A stretch of 41,681 nucleotides of DNA from a virus, in the IMG/VR virus record IMGVR_UViG_3300022839_000032, positions 1 to 41,681 of that record, one strand, 5' to 3'. Below are positions 7,831 to 38,010 of the stretch, piece after piece. A program made the translations under genes and the position numbers. Within the stretch, counting starts at the first letter, position 1, and each line of letters starts with the position of its first letter. The notes below the pieces were generated by a model. The model was given only the letters and a program-made list of their open reading frames with translations. It was not told the origin of the DNA and did no database searches.

Positions 7831-8070
7831 ATGGATAAGTTTTATAAGTATTTAAAAAGAATAGGTATAGCACTGTCTATACTTTTAAACGTATTATTAG
7901 GTGGGTATAGTAATCAAACTTTTAGCGCAAGAAATTATGGATGGCATTTAAAAAACAAGCCAAACCTTGTTGTGGTTTTAGATTTTGTGTTTGATAAAGT
8001 TTTTAATGATCCATCACATTGCATAAAAGCTTGGAGTTATTGGTTAATCAGAAAGGAAATTGATTTGTGA
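7831..8070 (+). CDS. small membrane protein
   Basis: This 79-residue protein starts at ATG 7831 after AGGGGGAG. A basic N-terminus precedes one hydrophobic segment (IGIALSILLNVLLGG), then SNQTFSARNYGWHLKNKPNL and a C-terminal DPSHCIKAWSYW region. The NQTFSAR segment is of a type I recall in many tailed-phage hypothetical membrane proteins. The function is unknown. The glutaredoxin gene starts at a GTG overlapping its stop. Confidence 0.65.
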   Translation: MDKFYKYLKRIGIALSILLNVLLGGYSNQTFSARNYGWHLKNKPNLVVVLDFVFDKVFNDPSHCIKAWSYWLIRKEIDL

Positions 8071-8318
8071 TTAAAATATATGGTAATGAACGTTGTGTGT
8101 GGTGTATAAAAGCAAAAAATATGGTGAAGAATTACAACATCAAATACGAATGGTTGAATACAGATGAAAGTGAAGTAATAGCAGAGCTAAAAAACTTGCT
8201 ACCAGAAGCCAAAAAAATACCACAAATATGGTGGTATGATAGGTATATTGGTGGATATGACGAACTTGCAAGTGAAATAGAAAACACTGTAGGTGGTTAT
8301 GGCGAAGGCAAAATTTGA
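8067..8318 (+). CDS. glutaredoxin
   Basis: This 83-residue protein uses a GTG start overlapping the previous stop (GTGA). It begins MIKIYGNERCVWCIKAK, placing the CxxC redox site at residues 10-13 at the end of strand 1. The cis-proline motif (KKIPQIWW) and the GGYDEL glutathione-site motif follow in order, a complete short glutaredoxin. Phage glutaredoxins serve as reductants for ribonucleotide reductase and other thiol enzymes. No reductase gene lies in this window, so the partner is unknown. Confidence 0.9.
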   Translation: MIKIYGNERCVWCIKAKNMVKNYNIKYEWLNTDESEVIAELKNLLPEAKKIPQIWWYDRYIGGYDELASEIENTVGGYGEGKI

Positions 8319-8546
8319 ATGCAAAATGACTGCTATGAAACACGATTAATTTATATTATGTCGAAAAGTGATGCTACTTTGGTGGCATCACTAATATTTG
8401 ACATGTACCAAAACAATATCAACTTAATTGATGTTTTTGAAATGACAGATTATCTTGAATTGAAGCTAAATTCTGATATGGGCAAAGTTCAATTTTATAT
8501 GAATGTGTTGACTGGCATTCATCCGGATATGAGGTTGTCTAAGTAA
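8319..8546 (+). CDS. small hypothetical helical protein
   Basis: This 75-residue protein starts immediately after the glutaredoxin stop. An internal ATG at 8358 (MSKSDATLVASLIF) could be the true start. It is helical, with LNSDMGKVQFYMNVLTGI at the C-terminus. No motif is recognised. The stop is followed by the A/T-rich TAAATAATAATAAATA that recurs after several plus-strand genes. Confidence 0.5.
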   Translation: MQNDCYETRLIYIMSKSDATLVASLIFDMYQNNINLIDVFEMTDYLELKLNSDMGKVQFYMNVLTGIHPDMRLSK

Positions 8547-23847: not shown

Positions 23848-24452
23848 GTTGCCTCTTTTGCGAATTTTAGAATCTCATCAAATCCATTTTTATTTTTCAT
23901 TGCTGACCCCATCATTTTAGATTTGTTTGAAGCGTTTAGCTCGTCAAACATTTGATTTAAAGCATCGATATCTTGTCTTTTAAGTGTCACAGAAGACCCA
24001 TCATCAAGTTTCATCATGCCAACTTTGAAGTTTTCATTAAGAGATTCGTTCTTCTTATTTTCAGAATCCCAGCCTTTAAGCCATGCTTTAAGAAAAGGTT
24101 CTTGTTTTCCGGCGACCCGTCTTGCGTCATTGGCATCAATGAGTCTACCAAGATCAGGGTCAAGTGGTGGGCTTCTTCTTGTGCCCTCTTGGCTGGCAAC
24201 TTTACCGAGCATCATCGCCTTTTTAATTTCTTTGGCCATGTCTACGCTCTCATAAACAAAAGCATCTTCACCAGCATCATAATCCGCAATACGTTTGCCG
24301 CCTCTTTTCTTAACTACATTCTCTGCGCTATGTTGGCCTTCTTCACTTGCTGGATGCCCAATCATTTTAATTACATGCTTGGCTTTGAAGTCTATTTCGC
24401 CTTCGGCACTTGGCTGCGCGACTTCTGATATAATTTGCTTAAAAGTTTTCAT
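23844..24452 (-). CDS. probable prohead core protein (gp67/gp68 position)
   Basis: This 202-residue protein starts MKTFKQIISEVAQP, which looks like the T4 capsid-targeting/propeptide type with an I-x-E cleavage site after residue 10. It lies between portal and protease, where T4 has core genes 67 and 68. The remaining sequence is charged and helical, with AKHVIKMIGHPASEE and a lysine-rich C-terminus (NKSKMMGSAMKNKNGF). A core or internal head protein cleaved by gp21 is the likely role; sequence similarity to gp67/68 is not evident. Start overlaps the portal stop (ATGA). Confidence 0.65.
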   Translation of the reverse strand: MKTFKQIISEVAQPSAEGEIDFKAKHVIKMIGHPASEEGQHSAENVVKKRGGKRIADYDAGEDAFVYESVDMAKEIKKAMMLGKVASQEGTRRSPPLDPDLGRLIDANDARRVAGKQEPFLKAWLKGWDSENKKNESLNENFKVGMMKLDDGSSVTLKRQDIDALNQMFDELNASNKSKMMGSAMKNKNGFDEILKFAKEAT

Positions 24453-27400
24453 TTTTTGATTGGTCCTTTTGAAAATTTTGATACTATGCCTCTATTTATA
24501 AAAGACTCTTCCGCTTCCTGTTCTTCTGGTTCATCATCAGGTTCTTGATCGGTGTCGTCTTTAGTTGGTGGTGATACATCATCTTCGGGGCCATCCATCC
24601 CATCATCATAAAGACCATCAGCTTTTTCCTTTGCAATTTCTTTGTCCATGTCTTTAACTTCATCATCGGTAAAGAACAGCACATTCTTTTTTACCCAAGA
24701 CCTTGAAAAGTATTTACCTACATGTTCGTCGACTTCTCTTAAAGTAGTGAGCTTTTCACGAAGAATTTCGGACTCTTTCAATTCTTCAAAAAAGTTATCT
24801 TTCATGAAGTCATATCTAATGCTGTTTTGAATATCAGACCATTCATCTGGTGCTATGATGCCTTTTAGCACTAATTGTCTTTCAAGGCATTTATCAAAAA
24901 TTATTGAGAAGCGTATTCTTAGTCTTTTGATAAATTTACTAAACCGCAATTCTTCTCTTGTGATTTCAGAAGCTCTACCAAACGTGTACATATTTTCAGG
25001 TTGTAAGCGACCAACAGGGACATTCAAAGATCTATATAATTTATTTTGAAAATAACTTAACTGTTCATTGTCGCCTAATGTCCCAGCTGAAGGTAAAGTT
25101 TCAATTTCAGTAGTTCTCGAATTCATCACAAAAATACCAGAAGATAATGCAAAATTGTGATAGTCATGATATAGATGATCGCCATCAATTGTAAGCGTAC
25201 CAACGTCTATCAAATCATCACGATACGCTACTTTAACAACAGTATGGTTTCCAGATCTTTTAGATTTAGTCACATGTCCTAATCTTCTTTTAGAAGTGTA
25301 TTGAGCTCCACAATATCTATATATAAAATGCGATAAAGTCTCATAACCATGTGAAGACACGTAATACATCAAAGTAGAATATGATATATTTTTGCCAGTC
25401 ATTTCGCAGAACACATTGACAATATTTTTATTTTTAGCATTTACGTTTTTGCTAAGTACAGTTTTTAGTATTGATGCAAACTGCTCTAATGATATATCAC
25501 CAACTTTGTTGTTATAGTTTGCTCTTGAACCGCCCCTATTTGAATACTTCTGCTTAAATTCAGCTGCGGTAAGATTTTCTCTATCTCTTTTAATTTTTTC
25601 AACTGCCATTTTAGAAGCTTGGATACCGACTTCGGAAGTCAATCCCTTACTCCATTTAGAAAGATACTCATCTTTAGAAAGTATTTTCTTGTCTTCATCC
25701 CTTAGCATTTTTATAACTTCTCTACCCTTACGAAGGCCATTCCAAACAGCTTCCGATTGGTTATTGAAGTCAGTAATTTCTTTTCTTCTTTTAAATCCTG
25801 CATCGGTTTTGAAAAATTCTTTTCCAGCGATTGAAAGATTTTCACAATGCGAATCATAAACTTCATCTCTCCAACCATATTTCGCCATGCTGGTATGAAG
25901 TTTGAGGTGTTCTGTTTTCCCCATTTCAATTAGATTTTCAGGATTGTTATTGAAGCGATGGTTATCAATGTGATGAATTACATTGCCTTTTTGGGTAGGC
26001 CCATTGAAATATTCATTAACCATTCTGTGCGAATATACCCAAGATTCATCATCGTTATTTTGGACTTGCAGGTAGTCTTTTGCCCCCGCATTTTGATTTA
26101 TGCCTTTCATTTTCTTATTAAATGGCATTAATGAAGAACCAGAAACAAGATCCTTTGCTTCTATTTTTTCGCCTGTTCTCAATATAAATTTATGATCTGG
26201 TGTTGCAGTAATTATTTCACCATTATCTAAATATACATCCAAAACTTGTGTATCGTTTCTTGTCACACCAGCCCAAGAAATTTTACCTGGGACAACTTTA
26301 CCATCTGGTGAAATTGAAAATGTCCAATTTTCTTTGCCTGCTTTATGTTCCACAATAAGTTGGCCAATTTCAACAGAACGACCATCCAACAAATCAACTT
26401 TTGTTGACAAATCAAAGCAACCTTCTCTCCTCGGAAACCAGTAGTCTTCTGTCATAGTATTTTTGGTATATACCCCAGCATCTAAAAGATAAGTGTGGTG
26501 ACTATGATATGTTTCCTCGTTATCGATTGACATAGAACCAACAGTTATTCTATCATCCATTTTTTCTACAGATACTATTCTGCGTTCTTGTGCAACGATT
26601 GGTTCTTGTTGTAAATTAGAAGCAATAACTTGATGTGGCAGATCAACAGAAGAAGTTTGTTCATCTTTCCACTTGCCTATTTCATGATCAGTATATTCCC
26701 AAGTTTTTGTATCGTTCTTATATATTAATTCGATAGAAGAAGTTTGTTTACGATGACCTGGGATTATTGAATCTTCCGTTGTTAGGTACTGAGCTTCAAC
26801 AAACCCCTTATTCCAGACAGGAAATTTATGATCTGGCGTACAAATAACGCTTTTACCATTGTCAAAAGTGACTTTAACAACCTCGGAGTCGTGTTTAGTG
26901 ATTCCCGCCCAAGAAACTGGCCCAGGATAAAATTTTCCACTAATAGGGTCGCATGAATATACCCAGTTAGTTTTGCCATTTTCATGCTCTTCGATTATCT
27001 GTCTTAATTCTAATGTCCTACCATCAAGAAGTGGAATCTTAGTTCCCAAATCATAGCACATCATTTTTCTATCGTCGCGGATTTCACCACTTGTTGGATC
27101 ATAAACGACTTTGTTCTTATGCCTTGCCATCATATCATGTAGGTATTGTTCGGCTTTTGCTTTAGGTAAGTTACCAACATCTATATAAAAAACGCGTCTT
27201 TCGGGAGAGCGTACAAGTGTATAAATTACGTTGGCATCTTCCAGCATTCTCAACTGGTTCAGGGGCTTTATAGCTCTATGCAAATACGAAAACACCACAG
27301 AATTTGTTTCATTTAACAATCCAGAGGTGACTCTTATGATAGAATCTTTGGCTATGCGCAGTCCAGCAACTGATGAATTTGAACTTTGTGATGTTCCCAT

Positions 27401-28009
27401 AGCAGTACCAAATCCATTATCAGAATACATATAGTATTCGGATCTAACTCTTTTTGTAGTAGCTACCATGCCTTGGCCTTTGATTGGCGTCTGCTCTACT
27501 TCTCTAATCAAACGAATTTTTCTTGGGTCAAGATAGCGTAGTTCGACAATTCCTTTTTTGAGGTTTTTTTCGTCAATGACAGCATGATAGTTTAGGCGAC
27601 CATCTACATAAAATTTTGCAAAAATTTCATATGCATTATTTGAAAAATCAAGTAATTTGAGAATATTGTCAAATTCTTCAAAAATTCTTTCTTTGACGCG
27701 ATCAGCAACTTCAACATCATCTAATACTACTTCTACCACTTTTTCAAAAGTGTTTACGCTAATTGCCTCATTGACAACTTCATCTACCGCCTGTTGTATC
27801 TCGGGACTAAGTGTCATAGTCCGATATCTTGTAACTAGTTCAGCTTCGTTTTTAGCACTGCCTTCTAAATCTAAAAGCATACCGTAAGAACCACCCAAAG
27901 CAGTTCCTACGGTTAATGCACCATCATCATTTAGCGGTTCAGCGAAAGATGTGATCTGTGTTTCGACCGCATCTTCTTTTCTTTTTATCTCAAATCCGAA
28001 TAATTTCAA
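24449..28009 (-). CDS. 20: portal protein gp20 interrupted by two inteins
   Basis: The 1186-residue precursor contains T4 gp20-like exteins. Residues 1-317 end RHKNKVVYDPTSGEIRDDRKMM, 13 residues TMTEDYWFPRREG form a tiny middle extein, and residues 964-1186 begin SRTTEIETLPSAGTLGDNEQ. Joined, they give a 553-residue portal close to T4 gp20 (524), and the join restores the conserved M-T-E-D-Y-W...R-x-G...E-x-x-T-L-P-G/S-A motif. The portal is the dodecameric ring at the head vertex through which DNA is packaged and the neck attaches. The C-terminus is very acidic (about residues 1135-1165). Unspliced protein would have over 600 foreign residues in the core, so splicing must be efficient. Confidence 0.95.
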   Translation of the reverse strand: MKLFGFEIKRKEDAVETQITSFAEPLNDDGALTVGTALGGSYGMLLDLEGSAKNEAELVTRYRTMTLSPEIQQAVDEVVNEAISVNTFEKVVEVVLDDVEVADRVKERIFEEFDNILKLLDFSNNAYEIFAKFYVDGRLNYHAVIDEKNLKKGIVELRYLDPRKIRLIREVEQTPIKGQGMVATTKRVRSEYYMYSDNGFGTAMGTSQSSNSSVAGLRIAKDSIIRVTSGLLNETNSVVFSYLHRAIKPLNQLRMLEDANVIYTLVRSPERRVFYIDVGNLPKAKAEQYLHDMMARHKNKVVYDPTSGEIRDDRKMMCYDLGTKIPLLDGRTLELRQIIEEHENGKTNWVYSCDPISGKFYPGPVSWAGITKHDSEVVKVTFDNGKSVICTPDHKFPVWNKGFVEAQYLTTEDSIIPGHRKQTSSIELIYKNDTKTWEYTDHEIGKWKDEQTSSVDLPHQVIASNLQQEPIVAQERRIVSVEKMDDRITVGSMSIDNEETYHSHHTYLLDAGVYTKNTMTEDYWFPRREGCFDLSTKVDLLDGRSVEIGQLIVEHKAGKENWTFSISPDGKVVPGKISWAGVTRNDTQVLDVYLDNGEIITATPDHKFILRTGEKIEAKDLVSGSSLMPFNKKMKGINQNAGAKDYLQVQNNDDESWVYSHRMVNEYFNGPTQKGNVIHHIDNHRFNNNPENLIEMGKTEHLKLHTSMAKYGWRDEVYDSHCENLSIAGKEFFKTDAGFKRRKEITDFNNQSEAVWNGLRKGREVIKMLRDEDKKILSKDEYLSKWSKGLTSEVGIQASKMAVEKIKRDRENLTAAEFKQKYSNRGGSRANYNNKVGDISLEQFASILKTVLSKNVNAKNKNIVNVFCEMTGKNISYSTLMYYVSSHGYETLSHFIYRYCGAQYTSKRRLGHVTKSKRSGNHTVVKVAYRDDLIDVGTLTIDGDHLYHDYHNFALSSGIFVMNSRTTEIETLPSAGTLGDNEQLSYFQNKLYRSLNVPVGRLQPENMYTFGRASEITREELRFSKFIKRLRIRFSIIFDKCLERQLVLKGIIAPDEWSDIQNSIRYDFMKDNFFEELKESEILREKLTTLREVDEHVGKYFSRSWVKKNVLFFTDDEVKDMDKEIAKEKADGLYDDGMDGPEDDVSPPTKDDTDQEPDDEPEEQEAEESFINRGIVSKFSKGPIKK
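24493..24500 (-). promoter_or_regulatory. late promoter inside the portal 3' end
   Basis: TATAAATA on the minus strand lies 41 bases upstream of the core-protein start, within portal coding sequence. It gives the core protein and protease their own late transcript. Confidence 0.65.
25121..26419 (-). other. portal intein 2 (433 residues, HNH endonuclease)
   Basis: It begins at Cys (CFDLSTKVDLLDGR, block A). Block B is EIITATPDHKF, block F is HDYHNFALSSGIFVMN, and it is followed by Ser as the +1 residue. The penultimate residue is Met instead of the usual His. An HNH nuclease lies between the splicing blocks (VIHHIDNHRFNNNPENLIEM), followed by NUMOD-like helices. So this intein can probably both splice and home. 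Block A through B closely resembles portal intein 1. Confidence 0.92.
26459..27058 (-). other. portal intein 1 (200 residues, no complete endonuclease)
   Basis: It starts CYDLGTKIPLLDGR (block A), has KSVICTPDHKF (block B) and ends HTYLLDAGVYTKN (block F) before Thr as +1. The penultimate residue is Lys rather than His. The middle, about 100 residues, has no HNH, LAGLIDADG or GIY-YIG motif, so it is a reduced intein, probably a descendant of an endonuclease-bearing form. It shares D-L-x-T-K-(x)2-L-L-D-G-R, W-A-G-(I/V)-T and T-P-D-H-K-F with intein 2. Confidence 0.9.
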
Positions 28010-28060: not shown

Positions 28061-28597
28061 TTATGTAATAGAATTGCCAGTCACGCCGCCTGATATTCTC
28101 CATAGATCATATTGGAAAGTAACTGTAAATTCTTGAATGGTATCTGCTTGATCCCAACCAGTCGCCATTTCAGAAATCTGAATTGGGTGTATACCTTCAA
28201 AAGTATATTCCCGAAGGGCAGAACCGTCTTTTCCATATTGTGTTATTTGTGCTTGTGCTTTATATTCTAAAGGCGTAGCTCTCGTATTACTGATATGAGA
28301 ATTTATTGAGTTAGACCAAGCTTCCATTGCATTTCTGATTAGGAAGTCTTCATCGTTTATTACTGTTACTGTCCAATCATCAAAAGTCCTATCACCACCC
28401 ATTTTTATGGTACGACCAAAATATGGAACGGTAATAGGTCCAACAGTAGAGCTTGGTATTGCGGCGGCTTTTACCATAAATGGAACCTTAAAATCCGCCA
28501 CGCCGTTTATAGGGTTTGTAATCTGCACTTGGAAGAGTGATGGTCTTGCACCACCGCCCACCAATTGCGCTTTAAATTCATTTATGTTAAAACTCAT
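28061..28597 (-). CDS. 19: tail tube protein gp19
   Basis: This 178-residue protein begins MSFNINEFKAQLVGGGARPSLFQVQI and contains FKVPFMVKAAAIPSSTVGPITVPYFGRTIKMGGDRTFDDWTVTVIND. That is the conserved core of T4-type tail tubes, ending in WRISGGVTG. Hexameric rings stack to form the inner tube that delivers DNA. T4 gp19 is 163 residues, so this is slightly longer. Its start overlaps the end of an inserted endonuclease gene, which separates it from the sheath gene. Confidence 0.95.
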   Translation of the reverse strand: MSFNINEFKAQLVGGGARPSLFQVQITNPINGVADFKVPFMVKAAAIPSSTVGPITVPYFGRTIKMGGDRTFDDWTVTVINDEDFLIRNAMEAWSNSINSHISNTRATPLEYKAQAQITQYGKDGSALREYTFEGIHPIQISEMATGWDQADTIQEFTVTFQYDLWRISGGVTGNSIT

Positions 28598-29211
28598 GCT
28601 TCGTAATTCCTTTTTATTATGGCTATTTCTTGACTATTTATCATTTTCTTCACTATATAATAGGACATATTTTCTTTATCGGATAATTCTTTGATTGACC
28701 CATAAACCTTGTCTTTGTATAATACACGTAAAGAACGAGGGTTTTTTTCGCCAGACATATTAAAAGAATGTTCATCGCGTTTTTTACCCTTTAACCAATA
28801 ACAATCTCTATTTTTTAAAGAATTGCTTATAGCCCTTTTATGATCTTCCGAACGCTTCATTCCTTTATGGGTATTAGAAGCTTTCTGTCTGGTCTTAGTT
28901 TCCCACTTTGGGTAAGCAGCCTCCGGACATATCGCCGTATTATCACTTTTATTGACCCACTTATCATTTTGTATAACGCGAAGTTTTTTAAGAACTTTAC
29001 TTTCCCAAATTATAGCTTTTTTACCACACTCGAATTTTTTTCTTATCTGAATAACGTCAGGATCACCATTAACTTCCCGAAATCTTTTTACGTGTTTACT
29101 TGATGTGAAATAGCTTACCCATAGTTCGGATGGTTCGCAATTTTTAGAAAACCTAACCCCATAATACCACTTATCGAGGTTAGACCATCCTATTAAGTAT
29201 GTGTAAGCCAT
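28594..29211 (-). CDS. GIY-YIG homing endonuclease between sheath and tube genes
   Basis: This 205-residue protein begins MAYTYLIGWSNLDKWYYGVRF, the GIY-YIG motif (YLIGW... YYGVR). AIIWESKVLKKL carries the catalytic Glu, and NUMOD3-like GMKRSEDHKRAISNSLK and SGEKNPRS segments follow, with a C-terminal IKELSDKENMSYYIVKKMI helix-turn-helix. AGGAAA precedes the start. Its stop overlaps the gp19 start (ATGA), showing clean insertion into the late tail operon. Confidence 0.85.
   Translation of the reverse strand: MAYTYLIGWSNLDKWYYGVRFSKNCEPSELWVSYFTSSKHVKRFREVNGDPDVIQIRKKFECGKKAIIWESKVLKKLRVIQNDKWVNKSDNTAICPEAAYPKWETKTRQKASNTHKGMKRSEDHKRAISNSLKNRDCYWLKGKKRDEHSFNMSGEKNPRSLRVLYKDKVYGSIKELSDKENMSYYIVKKMINSQEIAIIKRNYEA
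28635..28642 (-). promoter_or_regulatory. late promoter variant GATAAATA before gp19
   Basis: GATAAATA on the minus strand, 38 bases upstream of gp19, lies within the 3' part of the endonuclease gene. It could keep gp19 transcription independent of the insertion. Confidence 0.5.
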
Positions 29212-29228
29212 TTTACAATTTCCTATGA

Positions 29229-31073
29229 TTAAAACGGCTGGCCCACAATTTCATCAAACTCTACTCCAGTTCTTGTAGCAATAAAAGTCAACTCGATAAA
29301 ATTGATTGTGCGGGCTGGTTTTATAAAGATATTACCTCTAAAAATATTTCTATCAATAACATCAGGCGTATTTATTGTAGAGTCACTGACAACTCTAAAA
29401 TCAATAATTCCGCGCTTACCTTGAATATCTCTTAGCAACGGTTCTACCAGATTCTTAAACTGTGTTTGTGTGAATTCATCGTTAAATTCGAACAAGAAAA
29501 TGCGTGATGTTGTAGCGATAGCTTTTTCGACAACAATAAACAATCTTCTGACATTCAATCTACTGAAAGCAGAAGGCGTACTAAGACCAGTCTTGTCACC
29601 AAATAGTAATGTTCCTTGGCCAGCTTGTGAAATTACTGGGTTCACATCTTTTCCATAAAGTACATCTCTTTGAGCTTTATTAGGATTGAAAGCCAATTTA
29701 ATTACGTTCTTAATTATGCCTCTTCTATATCCAGCGGCAGATTCCCATGGGTCAATACGTGCCCACAAACCTGCAATATCACCATTTAGCGGAACCCAAC
29801 GGTATACATCGTTATACTTATCATAGCGATATTTATAACCACTATCCATAAACCAATAAGATGAATTCTGTAGTTGATTTCTAAAATTTATAACAGAATT
29901 TAGCTTATCATTGGGGTTTGATGGCGTAACAACATCAGCCAATGATGGTGAAATAAACAGTACACAATCTTTTCTTACTTCGCATACATTGGCTATGATA
30001 TAGTTCGCCAAACCAGTATTGTTGGCACCACCCATAGCTTTGCCTTGTAGCACAAATGCGATGTCTATTTCTTCAGAATTGGTAAAACTATCATATCCAG
30101 CCGCTAAAGCGCCAAATGACAAGAGAGTGCTTGTATTTTCACCATTGCCGTCAGAACCACCCACGAAGTTAAAATGATATGGCAGATCAGAATCTACGAT
30201 GTTTTCATTTTCTACATGACTTACCCAAGAAGAACGATTCTCCAAAAGAACTTTGTAGTTATTGGTAGAACCATCTTCTAATCTTGCATTTTCTATAGTA
30301 GAAACATTTTCAAACACCTCAAGTATAGAACCAGCTAAATTGCTAATTTTACCATCATTGTCTGCCACTACGATATGGATAGAGTTTGTTGATGGGGCAC
30401 CACTAACAGAAGAATAATATTTCCAACGTCTTTCAAGAATTAAAGAAAGACCATCTTCTGTTGCTAATGTGTATCTGTTATTGAAATTCAAGGTGTATGT
30501 AAAAGCACCATCACCATCAGGACCAGCTTTGGCGAAAGAAGCAACGCGCATATCTTGATATCCGACGTTGTTATTACCAACTCTTAATATATCATAAGTT
30601 GTAATATCAGTAAGTGGCAAATCTTCTTGCGAAGTGAATACTAGTTGATTACCATTAAATACTATAGTAGCGGTAATACCATCTAAATCGAGATCGATGA
30701 TTTGTTTGGAATAAGCATCAGCAGAAGTTATGTAAGAAACATCTAAAGAATTGCCAAGTGAACCTTTATATTTTGCAACAAATGGGCTATCTATTGAATT
30801 AGCATTTACTGCGTCTTCTATTACGCGGGTAACATACAACGCATTTGAATATGCCAAAAAATCTGCGGCAACAAAAAAAGTCTCCGCATTAAAACCTGTT
30901 GGCTTGCCAAATCTTGAAGTCAAATCTTTTTCAGATGTAATCAAAACTGGCTCATTCTCTGGACCCCAAAGAAAAGGACCAGCAATTGCAGCTTGTGTTG
31001 ATGATATTGCAGGGATAACAGCGGTCGCATCTACTTCACGAACTGTTACAGATGGGCTTACAGAAAAAACCAT
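29229..31073 (-). CDS. 18: contractile tail sheath protein gp18
   Basis: This 614-residue protein begins MVFSVSPSVTVREVDATAVIPAISSTQAAIAGPFLWGP, the typical sheath N-terminus that interlinks subunits. The C-terminal domain shows the conserved AFNPNKAQRDVLYGKDVNPV, LFGDKTGL, SRLNVRRLFIVVEKAIATTSRIFLFEFND and PARTINFIELTFIATRTGVEF segments. It polymerises around the gp19 tube and contracts during injection. T4 gp18 is 659 residues. It has a late promoter just upstream and is intein-free. Confidence 0.97.
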   Translation of the reverse strand: MVFSVSPSVTVREVDATAVIPAISSTQAAIAGPFLWGPENEPVLITSEKDLTSRFGKPTGFNAETFFVAADFLAYSNALYVTRVIEDAVNANSIDSPFVAKYKGSLGNSLDVSYITSADAYSKQIIDLDLDGITATIVFNGNQLVFTSQEDLPLTDITTYDILRVGNNNVGYQDMRVASFAKAGPDGDGAFTYTLNFNNRYTLATEDGLSLILERRWKYYSSVSGAPSTNSIHIVVADNDGKISNLAGSILEVFENVSTIENARLEDGSTNNYKVLLENRSSWVSHVENENIVDSDLPYHFNFVGGSDGNGENTSTLLSFGALAAGYDSFTNSEEIDIAFVLQGKAMGGANNTGLANYIIANVCEVRKDCVLFISPSLADVVTPSNPNDKLNSVINFRNQLQNSSYWFMDSGYKYRYDKYNDVYRWVPLNGDIAGLWARIDPWESAAGYRRGIIKNVIKLAFNPNKAQRDVLYGKDVNPVISQAGQGTLLFGDKTGLSTPSAFSRLNVRRLFIVVEKAIATTSRIFLFEFNDEFTQTQFKNLVEPLLRDIQGKRGIIDFRVVSDSTINTPDVIDRNIFRGNIFIKPARTINFIELTFIATRTGVEFDEIVGQPF

Positions 31074-31127
31074 GTTTTTTTCTCCTTTGTGTGTATTAAA
31101 CTCGGATTTAAATCAAATTGCTAATTG

Positions 31128-31135
31128 TATTTATA
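31128..31135 (-). promoter_or_regulatory. T4-type late promoter of gp18
   Basis: TATAAATA on the minus strand, 55 bases upstream of the sheath ATG, lies just past the large-terminase stop at 31155. Confidence 0.7.
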
Positions 31136-31154
31136 TAAACGCCCTTTTCAATAA

Positions 31155-32963
31155 TCACCAGTTTACTACACCATCATCTTCTCTACCGTCTTGAATGAAA
31201 CCAAAAGGAAGCAATTCGGAATCTAACTGATCATCAGTTTTTTCTTTTAATCGCATTATTGTATTTATGTCGGTTATGTCTTTAAAATATGTCTGTTCAA
31301 CCAACCAAGAAAATAATACTAAGGTCATAACCATATCATCATGCGCACCGGACTCTGCTTCATATGATGCACCTTTTTTAGAAAACCTCGAAAGTTCTTG
31401 TATAGTGTCAAAATCACATACTATCATCTGTTCTTGTTCAATTAACATTTTCAATATAGAGCAACCAATTGACTTCACCGACTTTGTAGTACGAACGCCC
31501 CTATCTACATTCTTACCAAATCCGCCAGAAACCCGCTTTCCTGACCTTCCGGCATTTTCTGTAAATATTAAGTTCTCATACCCGAAATCTAAGTATAGAA
31601 CGTCACTAACCTGTCCACCAATGTCATTTATTTCAATCATCACATAGGCTTCGTTGTACAAATTAGCAAATCGAAAAATTATAGAGGCGAAATCAACTGG
31701 CCCTATGAAATTATCTCGAAAAGCACATACCTGTTTATATGGCATTTCAGTAACATCCATTATAGAAAAAGTCGAATAATCCAATCCTTTTCCTCTTGAA
31801 ACGTCCGCTATGAGAGTGTATATTCTTTCTTTTTGTGGCTTATCGTATTGCTTTATACCTTCACTTTGTGCAATCGGTATGAAAGGTGACAAATTTTTCA
31901 ATTTATGACCAGAAATTAATGTACCCGAACTGCCAATAAATTGACAATTATGCGATACTAACCCATTGGTGTAGTATTTGTGGCCTTTTTCTACATGCAA
32001 AGCATCATACACGGGAGCAATTTCGGAATCGTCTTTTTGAATAAAAGATACATTGGTAAAACCTTCACTGGTCTGTATCTCATCCCCAATAGCTAATTTT
32101 TTTGCTTCGATAAATCCACATCTCATTTGAAACTTATGGTCTAACGAACATTCAATAGTCTCAGCATTTTCAAACGATATTTTGATGATGCCTGTGGCAA
32201 TCTGTCTCCTAACCCCGTGAAAGTGCGAGAAGCCATCTGGTGTTAAAATTTCATACTTATCTTGCATCTTAGAAGGCCCGATCAACTGATCTTCATACAG
32301 TTTTTCTATATACATTGTTAATACCTTACCCGTTGTCTTGTCTCTTACTGTCACTAAAGCATTTCCCTTAACACAACAATATTCTTGATTGAACTTCTCT
32401 TCATCATGGTCTAAAGCTTCCAGTGTTTCTTTCTTCCATTTTTCACCACGGCCTGGGACATCATTCCACATTACTTTGACAAACTCATATCCGTTAGTAC
32501 CTTCTTCCGCCCCTTTACATGTCTTGTAAAAATGATTTAGACCTTTGGGGGTAGATGTCATAAGAAGTTTAGTATTTTCGCCAGATGAAATTGTTGGATA
32601 TACAGAAGCAAAAAATTCATCATACCCTTCAATAAATGCACATTCATCGAGATATAAAAATGCGCAGTTATGAACTTCTACGCCTTCAACCGTATAACTG
32701 TTAGTATCTTCCACTTCTATGATATCATAGACAGGTTCATCATAACCAGCTGGCTCGCAATTAATGAAATTTTTACCATATAAAACGTGGTCAGGCGTCA
32801 TATCAATAGCTTGCATCCATTCACCGCCGTCCGTCAAAAACTTATGGTCGGAAGTGCATCTGATGGGTTTTGTATCTTCTATATTGACAGTATATACTGG
32901 TTTATTACCCATGTACGAAACACCTTGGAAATTTCTGAATTCTCCTTGTGATAAAATTTTCAT
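31155..32963 (-). CDS. 17: large terminase gp17, third fragment: IntC-2 + ATPase end + mini-intein + nuclease
   Basis: The 602-residue product starts with the C-terminal half of split intein 2 (residues 1-99, ending SYTVEGVEVHN). It continues with CAFLYLDECAFIEGYDEFF, the Walker B and catalytic acid of gp17, and the coupling motif LLMTSTPKGLNHFY. A contiguous mini-intein (residues 197-339) interrupts the sequence KFNQEYC-CQFIGSSGTLISG. The nuclease domain then has DVSRGKGLDYS, MIEINDIGGQ and GAHDDMVMTL as metal-binding acids. Both splicing reactions are needed for the enzyme that cuts and pumps DNA into proheads. Start ATG overlaps the endonuclease stop. Confidence 0.93.
   Translation of the reverse strand: MKILSQGEFRNFQGVSYMGNKPVYTVNIEDTKPIRCTSDHKFLTDGGEWMQAIDMTPDHVLYGKNFINCEPAGYDEPVYDIIEVEDTNSYTVEGVEVHNCAFLYLDECAFIEGYDEFFASVYPTISSGENTKLLMTSTPKGLNHFYKTCKGAEEGTNGYEFVKVMWNDVPGRGEKWKKETLEALDHDEEKFNQEYCCVKGNALVTVRDKTTGKVLTMYIEKLYEDQLIGPSKMQDKYEILTPDGFSHFHGVRRQIATGIIKISFENAETIECSLDHKFQMRCGFIEAKKLAIGDEIQTSEGFTNVSFIQKDDSEIAPVYDALHVEKGHKYYTNGLVSHNCQFIGSSGTLISGHKLKNLSPFIPIAQSEGIKQYDKPQKERIYTLIADVSRGKGLDYSTFSIMDVTEMPYKQVCAFRDNFIGPVDFASIIFRFANLYNEAYVMIEINDIGGQVSDVLYLDFGYENLIFTENAGRSGKRVSGGFGKNVDRGVRTTKSVKSIGCSILKMLIEQEQMIVCDFDTIQELSRFSKKGASYEAESGAHDDMVMTLVLFSWLVEQTYFKDITDINTIMRLKEKTDDQLDSELLPFGFIQDGREDDGVVNW
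31947..32375 (-). other. contiguous mini-intein in the large terminase (143 residues)
   Basis: It begins CVKGNALVTVRDKTTG (block A), has TIECSLDHKF (block B) and ends GHKYYTNGLVSHN (blocks F/G) before Cys +1. No endonuclease domain is present. The stretch EILTPDGFSHFHGV matches KILSQGEFRNFQGV at the start of the nearby IntC-2, so the two terminase inteins are related. The site lies between two cysteines of the extein. Confidence 0.9.
32667..32963 (-). other. split intein 2, C-terminal half (99 residues)
   Basis: It starts MKILSQGEFRNFQG, has KPIRCTSDHKF (block B) and ends TNSYTVEGVEVHN before Cys +1. It must pair with the 27-residue half at 33919-33999. A very short N-half and long C-half is the arrangement of atypical split inteins such as AceL-TerL, also found in a terminase. 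Confidence 0.88.
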
Positions 32964-33898
32964 CTTTTATGTGTCATTCCCTTGACCCACCCATCTGGAA
33001 TTGGATTTTTAGGGTCATGTCTTGTATTTTTCTTTGTTGCCGTGTTTGTTATCCAAATCTTTCCGGTCTGTTTTTCTATCATTTTTTTTATTTTTTCGGG
33101 ATCTTTATTTATTTTATCCATACGGATTTTGTGTTGCTCTGGATTTTCTTTAATCCATCTAGATATAGATTCCCCTCGCTTCGCGTTAGACTCTGGTGTT
33201 TTTGGGACACCAGAGAATCTATCGCTGCATATCTTAGATTTTATGACATTTCTTTCAGCTTTTTCATCCAACCATTTTTGTCTTTCGTTGAATCTGTCTA
33301 TCATTCTTGTTTGCAGAAAATCGGATTTGTAGCGGCATACACCTTGTGAAAACAGGGTTGCTAAATTGTGCAGTTTTGTTTTTGTTGGCCCCACGTCACA
33401 CAAACCAAAATAATCGTATAGTTGTTCTCTGTTATAACATATCTCTCCGGTCTCCACGATGATAACTTCAGCCCATGTGAATGGCGTCGATTTAAAGGTC
33501 TCATTTCTTGCATTCTGAATCTGCAATATAGTTTCTTTCTTGTGTTTTTTGCCGAAAAAACTATTATTCTCTCCAAACAATACACAAACATTTTCACCTA
33601 AGCACAAGTTATAATTACTCTCGTCCAATACCCACTCAACATTAACTATATCTGCTTCGAATAATTCGGCATCTTTTTTATTATCTGTAACATATAAAAG
33701 CACCTGTTTCATATTTTCAGGACCGTACTTCATTAAAGCCTTTTTTATTAATACACCAGAACCTAGATACCCATCTCTAAAGATAGATCCTGATTCGCTC
33801 TCGACGCTTAAAATATCGCTTTTATTTTTTAAACCATGAAATCCGACGTATTCTTTATTATTAATTTTATTGACAGTTTTATATATAGAATATATCAA
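32960..33898 (-). CDS. GIY-YIG homing endonuclease within split intein 2
   Basis: The frame uses TTG 33898, with TAGGAG nine bases upstream, and encodes 312 residues. MIYSIYKTVNKINNKEYVGFHG is the GIY-YIG start, GYLGSGVLIKKALMKYG the Arg/Lys region and ELFEADIVN the catalytic Glu. Later parts contain NNSFFGKKHKKET (NUMOD3-like), RGESISRWIKENPEQ and a C-terminal GKIWITNTATKK segment. It occupies the break between the two halves of split intein 2 and ends in an ATGA overlap with the third terminase fragment. It probably created or exploits the fracture by homing into terminase alleles lacking it. Confidence 0.88.
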   Translation of the reverse strand: MIYSIYKTVNKINNKEYVGFHGLKNKSDILSVESESGSIFRDGYLGSGVLIKKALMKYGPENMKQVLLYVTDNKKDAELFEADIVNVEWVLDESNYNLCLGENVCVLFGENNSFFGKKHKKETILQIQNARNETFKSTPFTWAEVIIVETGEICYNREQLYDYFGLCDVGPTKTKLHNLATLFSQGVCRYKSDFLQTRMIDRFNERQKWLDEKAERNVIKSKICSDRFSGVPKTPESNAKRGESISRWIKENPEQHKIRMDKINKDPEKIKKMIEKQTGKIWITNTATKKNTRHDPKNPIPDGWVKGMTHKR

Positions 33899-33915
33899 TT
33901 ACAAATTCTCCTATT

Positions 33916-34620
33916 TCAACTATTTATGAGACTCTTTATTTCGACGAGGTAATATCCGCCATCCTTTTCTATACAAACTTTAGTGTCTCCAGTTACGCAA
34001 CTTTTTCCTCGGATTGCGGAAGATGATGTTGTTCCTGCATATATTTTGCAGCCATTTTCTAATTCTATACTATTTTTGTTCCACTCTTCGATCCCATGTT
34101 GCATCCAAGTAGGCAATGATTCATATGCAAGTTTTATTCTTGACAAAACTTCTTTAGCAGCATCACCTTTATTAGCAAGTATAGCGACTGTCTTATATTC
34201 ATTGAATAATATGTAATGTAGTATGACCGCAACTGCGGTAGTTGTATTATGTGAAAGAATATCTCCTGTATAATATGTATGATTTTCAGAATTTACTGTG
34301 ATATCATACATATTACTAGATTCGACTTTATTTTCAATTTTCAAAACTTTCTTGAAGCCATTTTTCGTAATTAACCGCGTAGTATTTGGAATAATATCTT
34401 TGGCGAATATCTCGTTATAGTTTTCGTCAAAAAGAATATGTGTATCTGCGCAAATTAATTCATAACCATCTTCTAACAGAATATACCATTCTTCATATTC
34501 TACAGTTTTATGAATATGAGAAATATCTTCCCAACCAGTATCAGTTTCTATTTCCCACTCGTCTTCGAGATGAATCGTATCTATGAACTTTCGTTCTACT
34601 GTGTCAGAAAGTTGATGCAT
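33916..34620 (-). CDS. 17: large terminase gp17, second fragment: IntC-1 + ATPase middle + IntN-2
   Basis: The 234-residue product has three parts. Residues 1-125 are the C-half of split intein 1 (ending HTYYTGDILSHN). Residues 126-207 are terminase (TTTAVAVILHYILFNEYKTV to GTTSSSAIRGKS), matching T4 gp17 between Walker A and Walker B. Residues 208-234 are the N-half of split intein 2 (CVTGDTKVCIEKDGGYY). So a single polypeptide must splice at both ends in trans. The terminase part retains the ATPase adenine-site/motif region, including A-N-K and SSSAIRGKS. GAGGGGG lies upstream of the start, inside the overlapping endonuclease gene. Confidence 0.93.
   Translation of the reverse strand: MHQLSDTVERKFIDTIHLEDEWEIETDTGWEDISHIHKTVEYEEWYILLEDGYELICADTHILFDENYNEIFAKDIIPNTTRLITKNGFKKVLKIENKVESSNMYDITVNSENHTYYTGDILSHNTTTAVAVILHYILFNEYKTVAILANKGDAAKEVLSRIKLAYESLPTWMQHGIEEWNKNSIELENGCKIYAGTTSSSAIRGKSCVTGDTKVCIEKDGGYYLVEIKSLINS
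33919..33999 (-). other. split intein 2, N-terminal half (27 residues)
   Basis: The half is only 27 residues, starting CVTGDTKV and ending EIKSLINS before the stop at 33916. Block A and its nucleophile Cys are present. The length is close to the 25-residue IntN of AceL-TerL known from the literature. Confidence 0.88.
33921..33928 (-). promoter_or_regulatory. late promoter variant CATAAATA before the GIY-YIG gene
   Basis: CATAAATA on the minus strand, 23 bases upstream of the TTG start, is embedded in the final codons of IntN-2. Confidence 0.5.
34246..34620 (-). other. split intein 1, C-terminal half (125 residues)
   Basis: It starts MHQLSDTVERKFIDTIHLED, has GYELICADTHILF (block B, with Ala in place of the usual Thr three before His) and ends TYYTGDILSHN before Thr +1. 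It pairs with the 41-residue half at 35563-35685. The break is early, after the first beta-hairpin of the intein. Confidence 0.88.
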
Positions 34621-35606
34621 TCTTTTATTGCCCCCTCTTTATCATTTTTATAATCTAATTCCCATACTCTATGAATCATGAAAGAATTTTCATTTGCTAT
34701 AATTTCTTTGTGATTTTCTTTAATCCATATTCCATTAGCCGTTTTTTTAGAAACTTTATTGTAAAAACTTTTGTTGTATACTCTAGGATTTGCGTGCCAA
34801 AAATCTCCATTATATTCTATAATTTTATTATCTAAGAAGATATCGTATGTATAATAATTTTTACCTTGGTTGTAATATAAAACTAAAGTTCTTTTTATAT
34901 TTTTTATATATTTTCCCAATTCTCCAAAAAGCTCTAACTCATTTTTGGAAACAGACGAACCCTTAGAATTCTTTAAAGAATTAATTCTTGTTCTTTCTTC
35001 TATTGGTTTATCATTTAAAGTTTTTTGCCACTTCAGTTGTCGTTCTTCCCATTTTTTAATGCCTTCCGATTCACCGTATCTTTCAATGAATCTATCAAGT
35101 CTGCCTACTGCCTGTCTTTCATGACGAGCATACATTGCTTGGCATAAACCCATCCCACGACGAAGATAATATTCGATATTAGTAGTATATTCTCTGTTTT
35201 TTGTTGCTTTTTGGATTGCTTCTTCTGAATAGTTCACAGATCCTTTTTTAAAAGGAGAATATTTACCTTTGTGATCATACCAAGGATTATTATTACCTTG
35301 TACACGACTAGACTTGATATCCATTCTTTTTTGTGCCTTCACTGAACAATTATAAAGGACAGTAAAATAATCTAATGTTTCTTGTCGGTTTTCCTTATAC
35401 TCTGATATCCTTTTGAGCCATTCTATTCTTTTTTGCCAAGATAAACCACTCTCGCATATTCTAATATGATTATCAACTCTGCCTATTCTTTTCAATTTTA
35501 GATCACTTACTTTTATCCAGTATCGGACATCAGATAAGTTCTTTATATACTGTCTTCGTTTAGTCAACATCATTTTTAAACTGGGTCTTTTTCTTTTCGT
35601 TTTCAT
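34596..35606 (-). CDS. EDxHD/Vsr-like homing endonuclease within split intein 1
   Basis: This 336-residue protein starts at ATG 35606 after AGGAG, inside the end of the first terminase fragment, and ends inside the start of the second (25-base overlap). The N-terminal 200 residues are very basic (MKTKRKRPSLKMMLTKRRQY). The C-terminal domain has NELELFGELGKYI (E), then YDIFLDNKIIEYNGDFWHANP (D...H), the E-D-x-H core of Vsr-like homing enzymes first described with split-intein 'fractured genes'. It occupies the fracture in the Walker A split intein and overlaps both terminase fragments. Confidence 0.87.
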   Translation of the reverse strand: MKTKRKRPSLKMMLTKRRQYIKNLSDVRYWIKVSDLKLKRIGRVDNHIRICESGLSWQKRIEWLKRISEYKENRQETLDYFTVLYNCSVKAQKRMDIKSSRVQGNNNPWYDHKGKYSPFKKGSVNYSEEAIQKATKNREYTTNIEYYLRRGMGLCQAMYARHERQAVGRLDRFIERYGESEGIKKWEERQLKWQKTLNDKPIEERTRINSLKNSKGSSVSKNELELFGELGKYIKNIKRTLVLYYNQGKNYYTYDIFLDNKIIEYNGDFWHANPRVYNKSFYNKVSKKTANGIWIKENHKEIIANENSFMIHRVWELDYKNDKEGAIKECINFLTQ

Positions 35607-35937
35607 AAAAATCTCCTATAGTAGTTTCGACTATTTCACCAGTCTTTTTATTCTTTATTTTTATAGGAGTATTTATATGAACGCATTTTCCACTTTGCCT
35701 TGCCGTAAGTACGGCTACTCTTCTGTTATCTGTTATCTTTTTAACTATTTCTTCTTGATAATCATACATATCAAAGGGTACTAATCCTCTATCAACATGG
35801 ACAATTTTGATATATTTCTTGGAAAAATATATTGGGTCTTGAGAACATTTAAAAAATTCTTGTACCATTTCTGGCGTCCACTCTAAAGGAGTGCCCGACT
35901 TTTTTAAATGCTGATTTCCAAGATACCCACCATTCAT
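35560..35937 (-). CDS. 17: large terminase gp17, first fragment: N-domain to Walker A + IntN-1
   Basis: The 125-residue product reads as terminase through residue 84 (SQDPIYFSKKYIKIVHVDRG ... DYQEEIVKKI, RRVAVLTARQSGK), ending precisely on the Walker A lysine. Residue 85 is the Cys of an intein N-half (CVHINTPIKIKNKKTGEIVE). The Walker Thr (TTTAV) is encoded 1.4 kb away on the second fragment. The start overlaps the gp16 stop (ATGA), as in a normal 16-17 operon. Joining the three fragments and removing inteins gives 84+82+97+263 = 526 residues, against 610 in T4. Confidence 0.93.
   Translation of the reverse strand: MNGGYLGNQHLKKSGTPLEWTPEMVQEFFKCSQDPIYFSKKYIKIVHVDRGLVPFDMYDYQEEIVKKITDNRRVAVLTARQSGKCVHINTPIKIKNKKTGEIVETTIGDFYENEKKKTQFKNDVD
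35563..35685 (-). other. split intein 1, N-terminal half (41 residues)
   Basis: It begins at Cys directly after the Walker A lysine and shows block A (CVHINTPIKIKN) and GEIVETTIGDFYE before the stop. A late promoter and the ribosome site and start of the endonuclease lie inside its coding sequence. Confidence 0.88.
35670..35677 (-). promoter_or_regulatory. T4-type late promoter before the EDxHD endonuclease
   Basis: TATAAATA on the minus strand lies within IntN-1, 64 bases upstream of the endonuclease start, so endonuclease and second fragment can be transcribed late. Confidence 0.6.
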
Positions 35938-36368
35938 GTCTGATTATCACCTTTCATCATTTTAAGTATGTCTGCGGTACTTAAAATGAGATTATTATTG
36001 ACTACATTTGTTTGAGCGGCAGGATGGTCTTCTTTTGCGTATTTTTTCTTTTCTGCCATAGCCACAAATTCTTTGTTTGCATCTAATAGCGTTTTCATCA
36101 TTTTAGACGCCACTTCAAATGCAGTTGGTGATTCCGATTGCTTGGCAAGTTCAAATATTTCATCTAAAGATGTATTGCCCTTTTCAATCATGTCTTTGAT
36201 GTTTTTGCGGGATAATTCTATATCTGCTGCCAATTCATCATCTATGGTAGTCATAAGGACTGGCACATCATCAAGTATCACTGGTAAATTTTCTATAATA
36301 TCATCATCATCTTCAATTTCTGACAGTGGCCTCAACCCTAATGCGCTCGCTATTTTTTCTTCACTCAT
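35934..36368 (-). CDS. 16: small terminase subunit gp16
   Basis: This 144-residue protein is acidic and helical. The N-terminal region (EDDDDIIENLPVILDDVPV) is followed by long central helices (DELAADIELSRKNIKDMIEKGN; SPTAFEVASKMMKTLLDANKEF). T4 gp16 (164 residues) also has a central coiled-coil oligomerisation core. A C-terminal VNNNLILSTADILKMMKGD ends the protein. It recognises DNA and stimulates the gp17 ATPase. Position before gp17 with an ATGA overlap and after gp15 confirms identity. Confidence 0.85.
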   Translation of the reverse strand: MSEEKIASALGLRPLSEIEDDDDIIENLPVILDDVPVLMTTIDDELAADIELSRKNIKDMIEKGNTSLDEIFELAKQSESPTAFEVASKMMKTLLDANKEFVAMAEKKKYAKEDHPAAQTNVVNNNLILSTADILKMMKGDNQT

Positions 36369-36377
36369 TATTTTTTC

Positions 36378-37184
36378 CTACTGTGGTTCTTCTTTTATTA
36401 CGATGACACCCCAATCGTCGTCTTCTATTATTTCAATATATGGGATAGTTTCGGTTATGTCTGTTGTTGGTTCGCCATTTACAGTCAGGCTTGGTTGTAT
36501 TGTAACTATAGATTTTTCAATAGCATCAGTATTTGTAGAAGTAAAATATCTTGTGTCTATGAATTTTATGACTTTTTTATCTCTGGTTGGCCCGAAGTAC
36601 CAAGCTTTCATAGAAAAATTTAACGTCCAAAGTAAACTACGTCTTGTTAAAAAATCTGATTCATACAAGTCTTCGATATTGGTACTTGTTAAAATAAGAG
36701 GTATATCTATTGGATCTATGTTATCTATTAACTTTACCGTTGTTGTCCACTCAGGTTTGAAAAATGGAATTATTTGTTCCATTATTTCTGCACCATCTTC
36801 ATAATTTTTTGCCATAATGCTTAATGTGAAATCTATATTGTAAGGTGCTGGTGAATATTGAAAATATGATTTTTCTGGATCATCAGAAGGCCCACCGCGA
36901 ATTTTCTTCAAAGAACCTATTTTTCTGGTCCCATCATATGACATCGATGTTATTTCAAAAGACATTCTTGGAAGTGTTATTGCGGTTTTCCTGTCAAGAT
37001 TTGGATCTTGAGTCAGGCGCGCAAGAAACTTTTGGTATGGCCCATAAGATATAGGAACTATCATACTTTGAACTTTTGCACCCTGTTGGTCCAACCTTTC
37101 AATAGTTATTTTATTGAAAATAGATCCAAACACCGCAACATATTTTTTTGTTGTCCCGTTGTAAAAGTGATTAACTAATGCCAT
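36378..37184 (-). CDS. 15: tail sheath terminator/stabiliser gp15
   Basis: The 268-residue protein starts MALVNHFYNGTTKKYVAVFGSIFNKITIER and contains VPISYGPYQKFLARLTQDPNLDRKTAITLPRMSFEI, the conserved gp15 signature. Toward the middle PAPYNIDFTLSIMAKNYEDGAEIMEQIIPFF continues the fold. It forms the hexameric ring that caps the tail tube and sheath and joins the tail to the neck. T4 gp15 is 272 residues, nearly identical in length. Confidence 0.95.
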   Translation of the reverse strand: MALVNHFYNGTTKKYVAVFGSIFNKITIERLDQQGAKVQSMIVPISYGPYQKFLARLTQDPNLDRKTAITLPRMSFEITSMSYDGTRKIGSLKKIRGGPSDDPEKSYFQYSPAPYNIDFTLSIMAKNYEDGAEIMEQIIPFFKPEWTTTVKLIDNIDPIDIPLILTSTNIEDLYESDFLTRRSLLWTLNFSMKAWYFGPTRDKKVIKFIDTRYFTSTNTDAIEKSIVTIQPSLTVNGEPTTDITETIPYIEIIEDDDWGVIVIKEEPQ

Positions 37185-37197
37185 TTTTATTGCCTAT

Positions 37198-37881
37198 CTA
37201 TATTTTACTGTCTGTTGGGCTTGTTATTATCTCGCTGAATGGATCAGACTCAGAAAAATCAACCAAATCTTTACTTTTTTCTTCGTAGAATATGTTTTTA
37301 GCAATAGGGTCAATATCAAATAGTGTTTCTAAATCGTCCACATTGTCTGTTCTATGTTCATCATAATGCTCGTCAATATATTCTACACCTGTAGAGAATC
37401 TTTCGTTTGAATATTCAAACAGTTCGCACTTAAGATCATATACTTGTAAGGAACCAAATTGATAAAATACAGATTCATGCTCAACAAAAGTGATCTTGAA
37501 GAATTTTTTATTCAATGGCATGTAAACCAAATCGCCTTCTTTTGGCCTTGTCAGATTTACATCTAACCTTGTCGCGTGTCTTTCAAATGTACTGACTGCG
37601 ACCGTAAAAGTTGCTTGGTCTCTTATTTGTAGACCAAAGCGACTAAGAAAATCGCCTTCACCCTCAAACCCATCTACAGATTTGATATAGACTTCCATTT
37701 GGTAAGCTGCATTGAAAAACGAAAGCCTGTCTTCATTCAAAATATCGTCAAATTCATCAATTTTTCTTGTGACGTAAAATGTGTCCACCCCATAGATTTG
37801 TATTGACTCTACTACAAGATCATCATAGAGATTTTGCGTATTCGAATGATCTGTGTTTTGAAAAAATACATTGGTCGCCAT
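37198..37881 (-). CDS. 14: neck protein gp14
   Basis: The 227-residue protein begins MATNVFFQNTDHSNTQNLYDDLVVESIQIYGVDTFYV and includes DEFDDILNEDRLSFFNAAYQMEVYIKSVDGFEGEGDFLSRFGLQIRD. It carries PKEGDLVYMPLNKKFFKITFVEHESVFYQFG, the conserved gp14 segment. It forms part of the neck collar between portal and tail, with gp13. T4 gp14 is 256 residues. A 186-base stretch with an opposite-strand promoter separates it from gp13. Confidence 0.93.
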   Translation of the reverse strand: MATNVFFQNTDHSNTQNLYDDLVVESIQIYGVDTFYVTRKIDEFDDILNEDRLSFFNAAYQMEVYIKSVDGFEGEGDFLSRFGLQIRDQATFTVAVSTFERHATRLDVNLTRPKEGDLVYMPLNKKFFKITFVEHESVFYQFGSLQVYDLKCELFEYSNERFSTGVEYIDEHYDEHRTDNVDDLETLFDIDPIAKNIFYEEKSKDLVDFSESDPFSEIITSPTDSKI

Positions 37882-37951
37882 TTTCTGTGCTATGCTTTCA
37901 TTTTTGGGTGTTGGTGCATGTAAAATAAGTTAAGTTTTTGCATTTTATGTC

Positions 37952-37979
37952 TTGACAAGTTTGAAAATCCTGGTATAAT
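37952..37979 (+). promoter_or_regulatory. consensus sigma-70 promoter facing right between neck genes
   Basis: TTGACA (37952-37957) and TATAAT (37974-37979), both perfect hexamers with a 16-base spacer, point away from the leftward late genes. No plus-strand gene follows; see the stem at 38011-38053. Confidence 0.7.
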
Positions 37980-38010
37980 CAATGTTAATGGGATGAAGAT
38001 GAAGTAACCT

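Follow-up and report, generated by a model that had tools for sequence, protein, structure and literature searches.

The IMG/VR virus record IMGVR_UViG_3300022839_000032 (41,681 nucleotides (nt), referred to as the window) carries on its minus strand the gene for the large terminase subunit (TerL), the counterpart of T4 gp17, distributed over three open reading frames (ORFs), TerL-N, TerL-M and TerL-C. An initial annotation of this DNA had described the terminase as three fragments connected by two different split inteins, plus a mini-intein, and all of these features were located (Table 1). Two putative homing endonuclease genes, HEN1 and HEN2, that the annotation had missed separate the pieces. 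TerL-N ends in ARQSGK followed by CVHINTPIKIKNKKTGEIVETTIGDFYENEKKKTQFKNDVD and a stop codon. In TerL-M, the C-terminal half of split intein 1 (IntC1) ends in ILSHN and is followed by TTTAV, and the gene ends in AIRGKS, CVTGDTKVCIEKDGGYYLVEIKSLINS and a stop codon. The C-terminal half of split intein 2 (IntC2) opens TerL-C and ends in VEVHN, followed by CAFLYLDECAF. Further along the same gene, the mini-intein, CVKGN...LVSHN, is flanked by ...FNQEYC and CQFIG. These are the junctions that had been read initially, and they place the inteins inside Walker A (QSGK^T), just upstream of Walker B (RGKS^C) and at the boundary between the ATPase and the nuclease (EYC^C). The HEN1 and HEN2 starts are preceded by a good Shine-Dalgarno-like AGGAG; the corresponding stretch is AGGGGG for TerL-M and, at a greater distance, AGGGA for TerL-C. 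The HEN2 stop codon and the TerL-C start codon share the sequence ATGA. A scan for promoters and terminators gave the same counts as shuffled sequences.

Table 1. Genes and features of the TerL locus in the window, with amino acid (aa) lengths; IntN and IntC, N- and C-terminal intein halves
Feature	Position	Strand	Matches
TerL-N gene (gp17 piece 1)	35937-35560	-	
TerL-M gene (gp17 piece 2)	34620-33916	-	
TerL-C gene (gp17 piece 3)	32963-31155	-	
TerL extein 1, 84 aa, N-terminus to ARQSGK of Walker A	35686..35937	-	PHROG terminase large subunit
IntN1, N-half of split intein 1, 41 aa, Cys1; stop codon 35560-35562	35563..35685	-	Site-a IntN relatives, 64-70% identity
HEN1, free-standing Vsr-like putative homing endonuclease, 336 aa, overlaps TerL-N and TerL-M	34596..35606	-	
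IntC1, C-half of split intein 1, 125 aa, ends SHN	34246..34620	-	PDB: gp41-1, VidaL and Cat inteins
TerL extein 2, 82 aa, TTTAV... to AIRGKS	34000..34245	-	Terminase_6N; T4 gp17
IntN2, N-half of split intein 2, 27 aa, Cys1; stop codon 33916-33918	33919..33999	-	65% identical in L006
HEN2, free-standing GIY-YIG putative homing endonuclease, 312 aa, TTG start	32960..33898	-	PHROG; weak NUMOD3/SegE_GIY-YIG
IntC2, C-half of split intein 2, 99 aa, ends VHN	32667..32963	-	PDB sequence match
TerL extein 3, 97 aa, CAFLYLDECAF..., Walker B to ATPase end	32376..32666	-	Terminase_6N; gp17
Contiguous mini-intein, 143 aa, C...HN, predicted cis-splicing	31947..32375	-	PT-HINT; Cat and VidaL inteins in PDB
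TerL extein 4, 263 aa, nuclease domain; stop codon 31155-31157	31158..31946	-	Terminase_6C; gp17 nuclease domain
Small terminase gp16 (neighbour)	35934..36368	-	PHROG terminase small subunit
Tail sheath gp18 (neighbour)	29229..31073	-	Pfam

The four exteins add up to exactly 526 residues (84 + 82 + 97 + 263), the length initially proposed for the joined protein. Residues 4-520 of the join align without a gap to all 517 positions of a profile of intact TerLs (930 bits), and therefore the three junctions are residue-exact. One of the 83 rows of this profile is the window join itself; the independent evidence thus consists of the fit at all three junctions and the 75% identity, over 516 columns, to the closest intact TerL (L083). 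Terminase_6N, Terminase_6C, Intein_splicing and PT-HINT were detected by Pfam in the expected pieces and, together with the matches to gp17, they bear out the presence of the ATPase and nuclease motifs. The joined protein has the Walker A/B ATPase and the RNase H-like nuclease of a T4-type gp17, and its gene lies in the order gp16-gp17-gp18. The wider gene order is also T4-like, with gp13-, gp14-, gp15- and gp16-like genes upstream of TerL and gp18 downstream (Pfam, PHROG).

The three inteins have the termini of Class 1 inteins: all start with Cys1, and they end in SHN, VHN and SHN, followed at +1 by Thr, Cys and Cys (split intein 1, split intein 2 and mini-intein, respectively). The Hint fold was recognized by Pfam, by sequence matches in PDB and by Foldseek with a contiguous homologue of split intein 1 inserted at the same TerL position (site a) in the relative L261. 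The AlphaFold model of this homologue (predicted local distance difference test (pLDDT) score of 84) has a sole disordered stretch, residues 43-61, that coincides exactly with the cut position in its split relatives, the window included, and its nearest folds are VidaL and gp41-1. Both split inteins have the short IntN of atypically split inteins. Pairwise identity among the window inteins is only 18-28%, and the nearest PDB entry to the mini-intein is the Cat consensus, which was made from the AceL and GOS TerL inteins. The arrangement known as a fractured gene, an enzyme gene broken by complementary intein halves with a free-standing endonuclease gene between them, occurs twice in this one gene, with HEN1, putatively Vsr-like, in the first break and GIY-YIG HEN2 in the second. 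A single break per gene, which is not a strict part of the definition, is not what is found: there are two in the window and three in the relatives L155 and L222.

HEN1 and HEN2 probably belong to two unrelated endonuclease families, and homing activity is predicted for both. HEN2 matched a PHROG homing endonuclease family (8e-23) and, weakly, NUMOD3 and SegE_GIY-YIG in Pfam. HEN1 had no Pfam match. An endonuclease alignment revealed in the HEN1 region the motif KIIEYNGDFWH, of the E-x-D/N-G-x-x-W-H type, and there was a weak profile match to the catalytic domain of I-Bth0305I (3r3p, E = 0.0039). The best Foldseek matches of HEN1 were I-Bth0305I and Vsr, with a probability of 0.94 but a weak E value of 0.17; the full-length model is poor outside residues 220-336, and the fold search has supporting value only. 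The site-a endonucleases of L155 (4275-5291), L222 (4947-6005) and the window share a central region and differ in the C-terminal domain, which is Vsr-like or GIY-YIG/T5orf172-like, indicating exchange of the catalytic domain at one homing site.

Two other IMG/VR contigs carry this locus at about 98% nucleotide identity to the window. Contig 3300037606_000753 (L003) has the whole arrangement, and contig 3300022867_000804 (L004) has it up to the contig end inside HEN2. Since these are separate contigs with matching breaks, an assembly error was rejected. L003 has lost 833 bp of HEN1 (window 34710-35542), and a stretch of about 147 bp in its HEN2 (window 33008-33154) is disrupted, yet IntN1 and IntC1 continue to occupy separate frames. 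Comparison of the exteins between the window and L003 showed 18 synonymous and 2 nonsynonymous differences, rejecting the neutral expectation (p = 6e-11) and indicating strong purifying selection. Unlike the exteins, the mini-intein (window 31947-32375, L003 3268-3696) has 4 synonymous and 11 nonsynonymous differences with no sign of constraint, which suggests relaxed constraint or diversification. The split-intein halves have 4 synonymous and 4 nonsynonymous differences over both comparisons (p = 0.05), too few for a firm statement. Between the window and L004, synonymous differences were found at 7 of about 104 sites in the exteins and at 1 of 189 in HEN1 (p = 0.003), consistent with a recent conversion of the HEN1 cassette.

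A search of metagenomes for the same arrangement, as the initial annotation had proposed, returned other IMG/VR loci with two or more split sites in TerL. About 300 loci from five scans were collected, and their TerL and intein segments were mapped by profile, with the insertion points anchored on the intein C-ends; the searches were seeded with the window locus, and the counts per site are not prevalence estimates. Inteins recur at four TerL profile positions that are identical in every virus, a (83), b (164), b' (172) and c (261), each of which was found empty, occupied by a contiguous intein and split. At least two split sites were present in seven virus types besides the window and L003, for which frames and termini were checked by eye. 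Two types have TerL in four pieces: L154/L155, split at a, b and c, and L176/L222, split at a, b' and c, whose sister L178/L220 is split at a and b'. The others are split at a and b (L156; L217/L218; L253, a truncated contig), at b and c (L173-L177) or at a and c (L226). A quick TerL tree required at least six state changes for the multi-split rows, with a mean of 7.5 for shuffled labels; the multi-split TerLs are scattered on the tree, indistinguishable from shuffled labels. No intact TerL was found in the 77-kb (L155), 126-kb (L251), 142-kb (L177) or 208-kb (L041) records of relatives, none of them known to be complete, and the pieces are present once in each. At site a, 58 of 75 loci (not dereplicated) have an overlap of exactly 25 nt between the endonuclease stop codon and the IntC start, and most site-b loci have ATGA as the overlap. 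These conserved junctions indicate translationally coupled cassettes rather than random breaks.

Two candidates were discarded. L171 (contig 3300042267_000149, 133 kb) appeared doubly split and was not counted because of several in-frame TGA codons, and the apparent split in L118 is a bare stop codon with no intein. In-frame TGA codons are the sole interruptions of the TerL and endonuclease frames at 5335-7554 of L171, a pattern suggestive of TGA recoding in the phage. Immediately upstream of the fractured TerL, L156 (3309-3940) and L011 (5809-6249) have an additional truncated TerL-like ORF.

Comparison of closely related viruses showed that the cassettes are mobile. Across 7.7 kb, L222 and L220 share 98.8% identity, and an exact 420-bp cassette distinguishes them: a split intein at site c, without its own endonuclease gene, that L222 has (8047-8466) and L220 lacks (at 8043). 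The near-identical viruses L226 and L224 also differ in the presence of a split intein. The site-a intein-endonuclease cassettes of L264 (5088-6400) and L257 are 100% identical over about 1.2 kb, whereas the TerL flanks are about 70% identical, which indicates a recent horizontal transfer, as homing predicts. The organizations found at site b form a series that may reflect how splitting arises: a contiguous mini-intein (L228), a contiguous intein with an in-frame GIY-YIG domain (L172), an IntN-endonuclease fusion with a separate IntC (L177, L222, L251) and, in the window, L155 and L006, a gene for each of the three parts. At site a, the intein frame stays open across a whole Vsr-type endonuclease gene that lies in another frame in L250/L251 (5180-6022), L255/L257 (2567-3412 in L257), L262 (4755-5600) and L264/L265 (5177-6022). 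The overprinted intein frame has 0 stop codons, while 15-19 are expected under synonymous codon shuffling, and none of 5000 shuffles was stop-free. Overprinting occurs in two lineages that are 65% identical, and L261, closely related to L257, lacks the endonuclease insert. The pattern suggests dual coding under selection and may represent an intermediate between contiguous and split inteins. Since the insertion sites range from empty, through contiguous inteins alone or with an endonuclease that is in frame or overprinted, to fused and fully split forms, the origin of split inteins becomes directly testable.

It is highly probable that the window TerL is a stacked fractured gene, in which AceL/GOS-TerL-like atypically split inteins and homing endonucleases occupy neighbouring motifs. 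The anatomy, homology, reading frames, recurrence, selection and presence/absence polymorphism described above are direct observations. The reading of two split inteins and one contiguous intein is supported by the Hint homology, the catalytic termini, the gapless join and the lack of an intron match, and further by the independent contigs, the purifying selection and the contiguous or intein-free counterparts at the same residues. According to this model, the TerL pieces would be translated as separate, coupled cistrons; IntN1 with IntC1 and IntN2 with IntC2 would form two Hint domains too different for crosswise pairing; and two trans-splicing reactions and one cis-splicing reaction would generate the 526-residue motor. 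The locus may have originated when separate intein-endonuclease elements homed one after another into the same gene; splitting would have followed where an inserted endonuclease gene interrupted the intein frame. Four points weigh against this explanation. The three splicing reactions are predicted from sequence, the orthogonality of the split inteins is likewise a prediction, and the assignment of HEN1 as Vsr-like comes from a motif and weak scores. In addition, an intact gp17 elsewhere in the genome had been named at the outset as a finding that would count against spliced fragments; no intact TerL lies within the 41.7-kb window record, but this is a genome fragment and such a gene may sit elsewhere.

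Other explanations were considered. Sequencing or assembly errors could have broken one ordinary gene with three contiguous inteins and endonucleases, a possibility raised by the metagenomic source of the contig and by the contiguous inteins at the same sites in some relatives. However, the breaks are repeated in L003 and L004, the pieces have dedicated stop and start codons, most of them with Shine-Dalgarno-like stretches, and the 25-nt and 4-nt junction overlaps recur in divergent viruses. An error is strongly contradicted by these data, and we give it almost no credence. The pieces could also be joined at the RNA level by group I or II introns, as in the split terL genes of the Jug phages (PMC12363816) and ICP1 (PMC10448857), or by programmed frameshifting. 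Nonetheless, no group I or II intron was found at E ≤ 1 in positions 29000-38000 (Rfam, permissive settings), Hint sequence with intact catalytic ends lies on both sides of each gap, and the endonuclease genes use their own start codons in overlapping frames, all of which make joining without inteins extremely improbable. An Rfam match to mir-190 inside IntC1 was dismissed as spurious.

A non-covalent motor of several chains, or a decaying gene that is not spliced, is a very unlikely explanation. The T4-type nrdA split by mobE is functional without splicing, as cited in PMC3653736, and splicing is a prediction at the TerL locus; on the other hand, intact intein ends are retained, purifying selection acts on the exteins, and the cut through Walker A falls inside GK^T, so that unspliced function is not plausible. 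Co-option of the split to time motor assembly, beyond mere tolerance, would fit the persistence of the split in L003 after the loss of HEN1 and the recurrence of multi-split TerLs. It is unlikely, considering that near-identical viruses differ in the presence of split inteins (L222/L220, L226/L224) and that cassettes were transferred recently, both as for selfish elements. Returning to the stacked fractured gene, we see an even chance for the broader proposal that tandem natural protein trans-splicing, in which two or three orthogonal split inteins build one essential motor from three or four chains, is recurrent in T4-like phages and arises from contiguous inteins by endonuclease insertion via an overprinted stage.

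Other insertions were observed in the window. A small ORF with GIY-YIG-like and NUMOD-like sequence lies between gp18 and gp19 (28594-29211, minus strand); the segment 28642-29227 is absent in the 98% identical L003 and is therefore probably a free-standing endonuclease insertion. The portal gene gp20 (24449-28009, minus strand) has two inteins, 27058-26459 (200 aa) and 26419-25121 (433 aa, HNH), that are only 13 extein residues apart: TMTEDYWFPRREG.

Single natural split inteins are known and are widely used as ligation tools. Fractured genes, as Dassa et al. reportedly described them in 2009, are conserved phage genes that a split intein divides, and the gene of a free-standing endonuclease, the Vsr-like family included, lies between its halves. 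The window shares with them the conserved phage gene, the split intein and the endonuclease gene between the halves; it differs in having two breaks, two endonuclease families and a contiguous intein, and its relatives have up to three breaks. The AceL-TerL and GOS-TerL split inteins (25/104 and 37/115 aa, PMC11766414) have the same host protein, a short IntN and Cys+1. Those were described as single splits, whereas in the window the most similar intein, the mini-intein, is contiguous and two other inteins are split.

Among cultured phages, the published description of the terL of Campylobacter coli phage vB_CcoM-IBB_35 (HM246721) gives an intein together with an endonuclease-containing intron (PMC3322345). 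Its frames (L304, 2526-7799) can instead be read as three inteins, one of them contiguous and close to site a, the other two split, at b and at b', the latter with an HNH endonuclease, and separated by 8 extein residues, CNIIVVDE; one further frameshift may be a sequencing error. As in the window, intein sequence and endonucleases break up the terL of this phage at several points. Campylobacter phage CP21 (L303, HE815464, 2556-6842) has TerL inteins at three points, two of them 8 extein residues apart, and the b' intein is contiguous. In phage JK32 (L305, MK962753), a Shigella phage propagated in E. coli, a split intein is present at b' with IntN fused to a nuclease-like domain (3251-6362), and its terminase is annotated as two large-subunit genes; JK32 could serve as a tractable laboratory model. 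The multiply split TerL is rare but not unique. The initial view that two split inteins in one terminase are exceptional holds as to rarity; it does not hold as to singularity, given the seven other virus types and the doubly split reading of IBB_35.

The literature search found no description of a gene with two split inteins as such; the original fractured-gene survey (Dassa et al. 2009) and Thiel 2014 were outside its scope. Within the searched literature, no single natural protein is described as being made via two or three trans-splicings. The Jug huge phages (PMC12363816) and ICP1 (PMC10448857) also have terL in two to three pieces with nearby endonucleases, but the pieces are joined there by RNA splicing and in the window by predicted protein splicing. 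As terL is a standard marker gene for phages, its scattering over three or four ORFs can lead annotation to overlook or misinterpret it. The loci described here supply sets of two or three co-evolved split inteins that would have to function alongside each other within a cell and thus offer a natural test of orthogonality. The closest parallel in design is the artificial tandem trans-splicing of one protein from three segments by two orthogonal split inteins (PMC12707363), which was engineered with unrelated inteins, whereas the window TerL is a natural gene.

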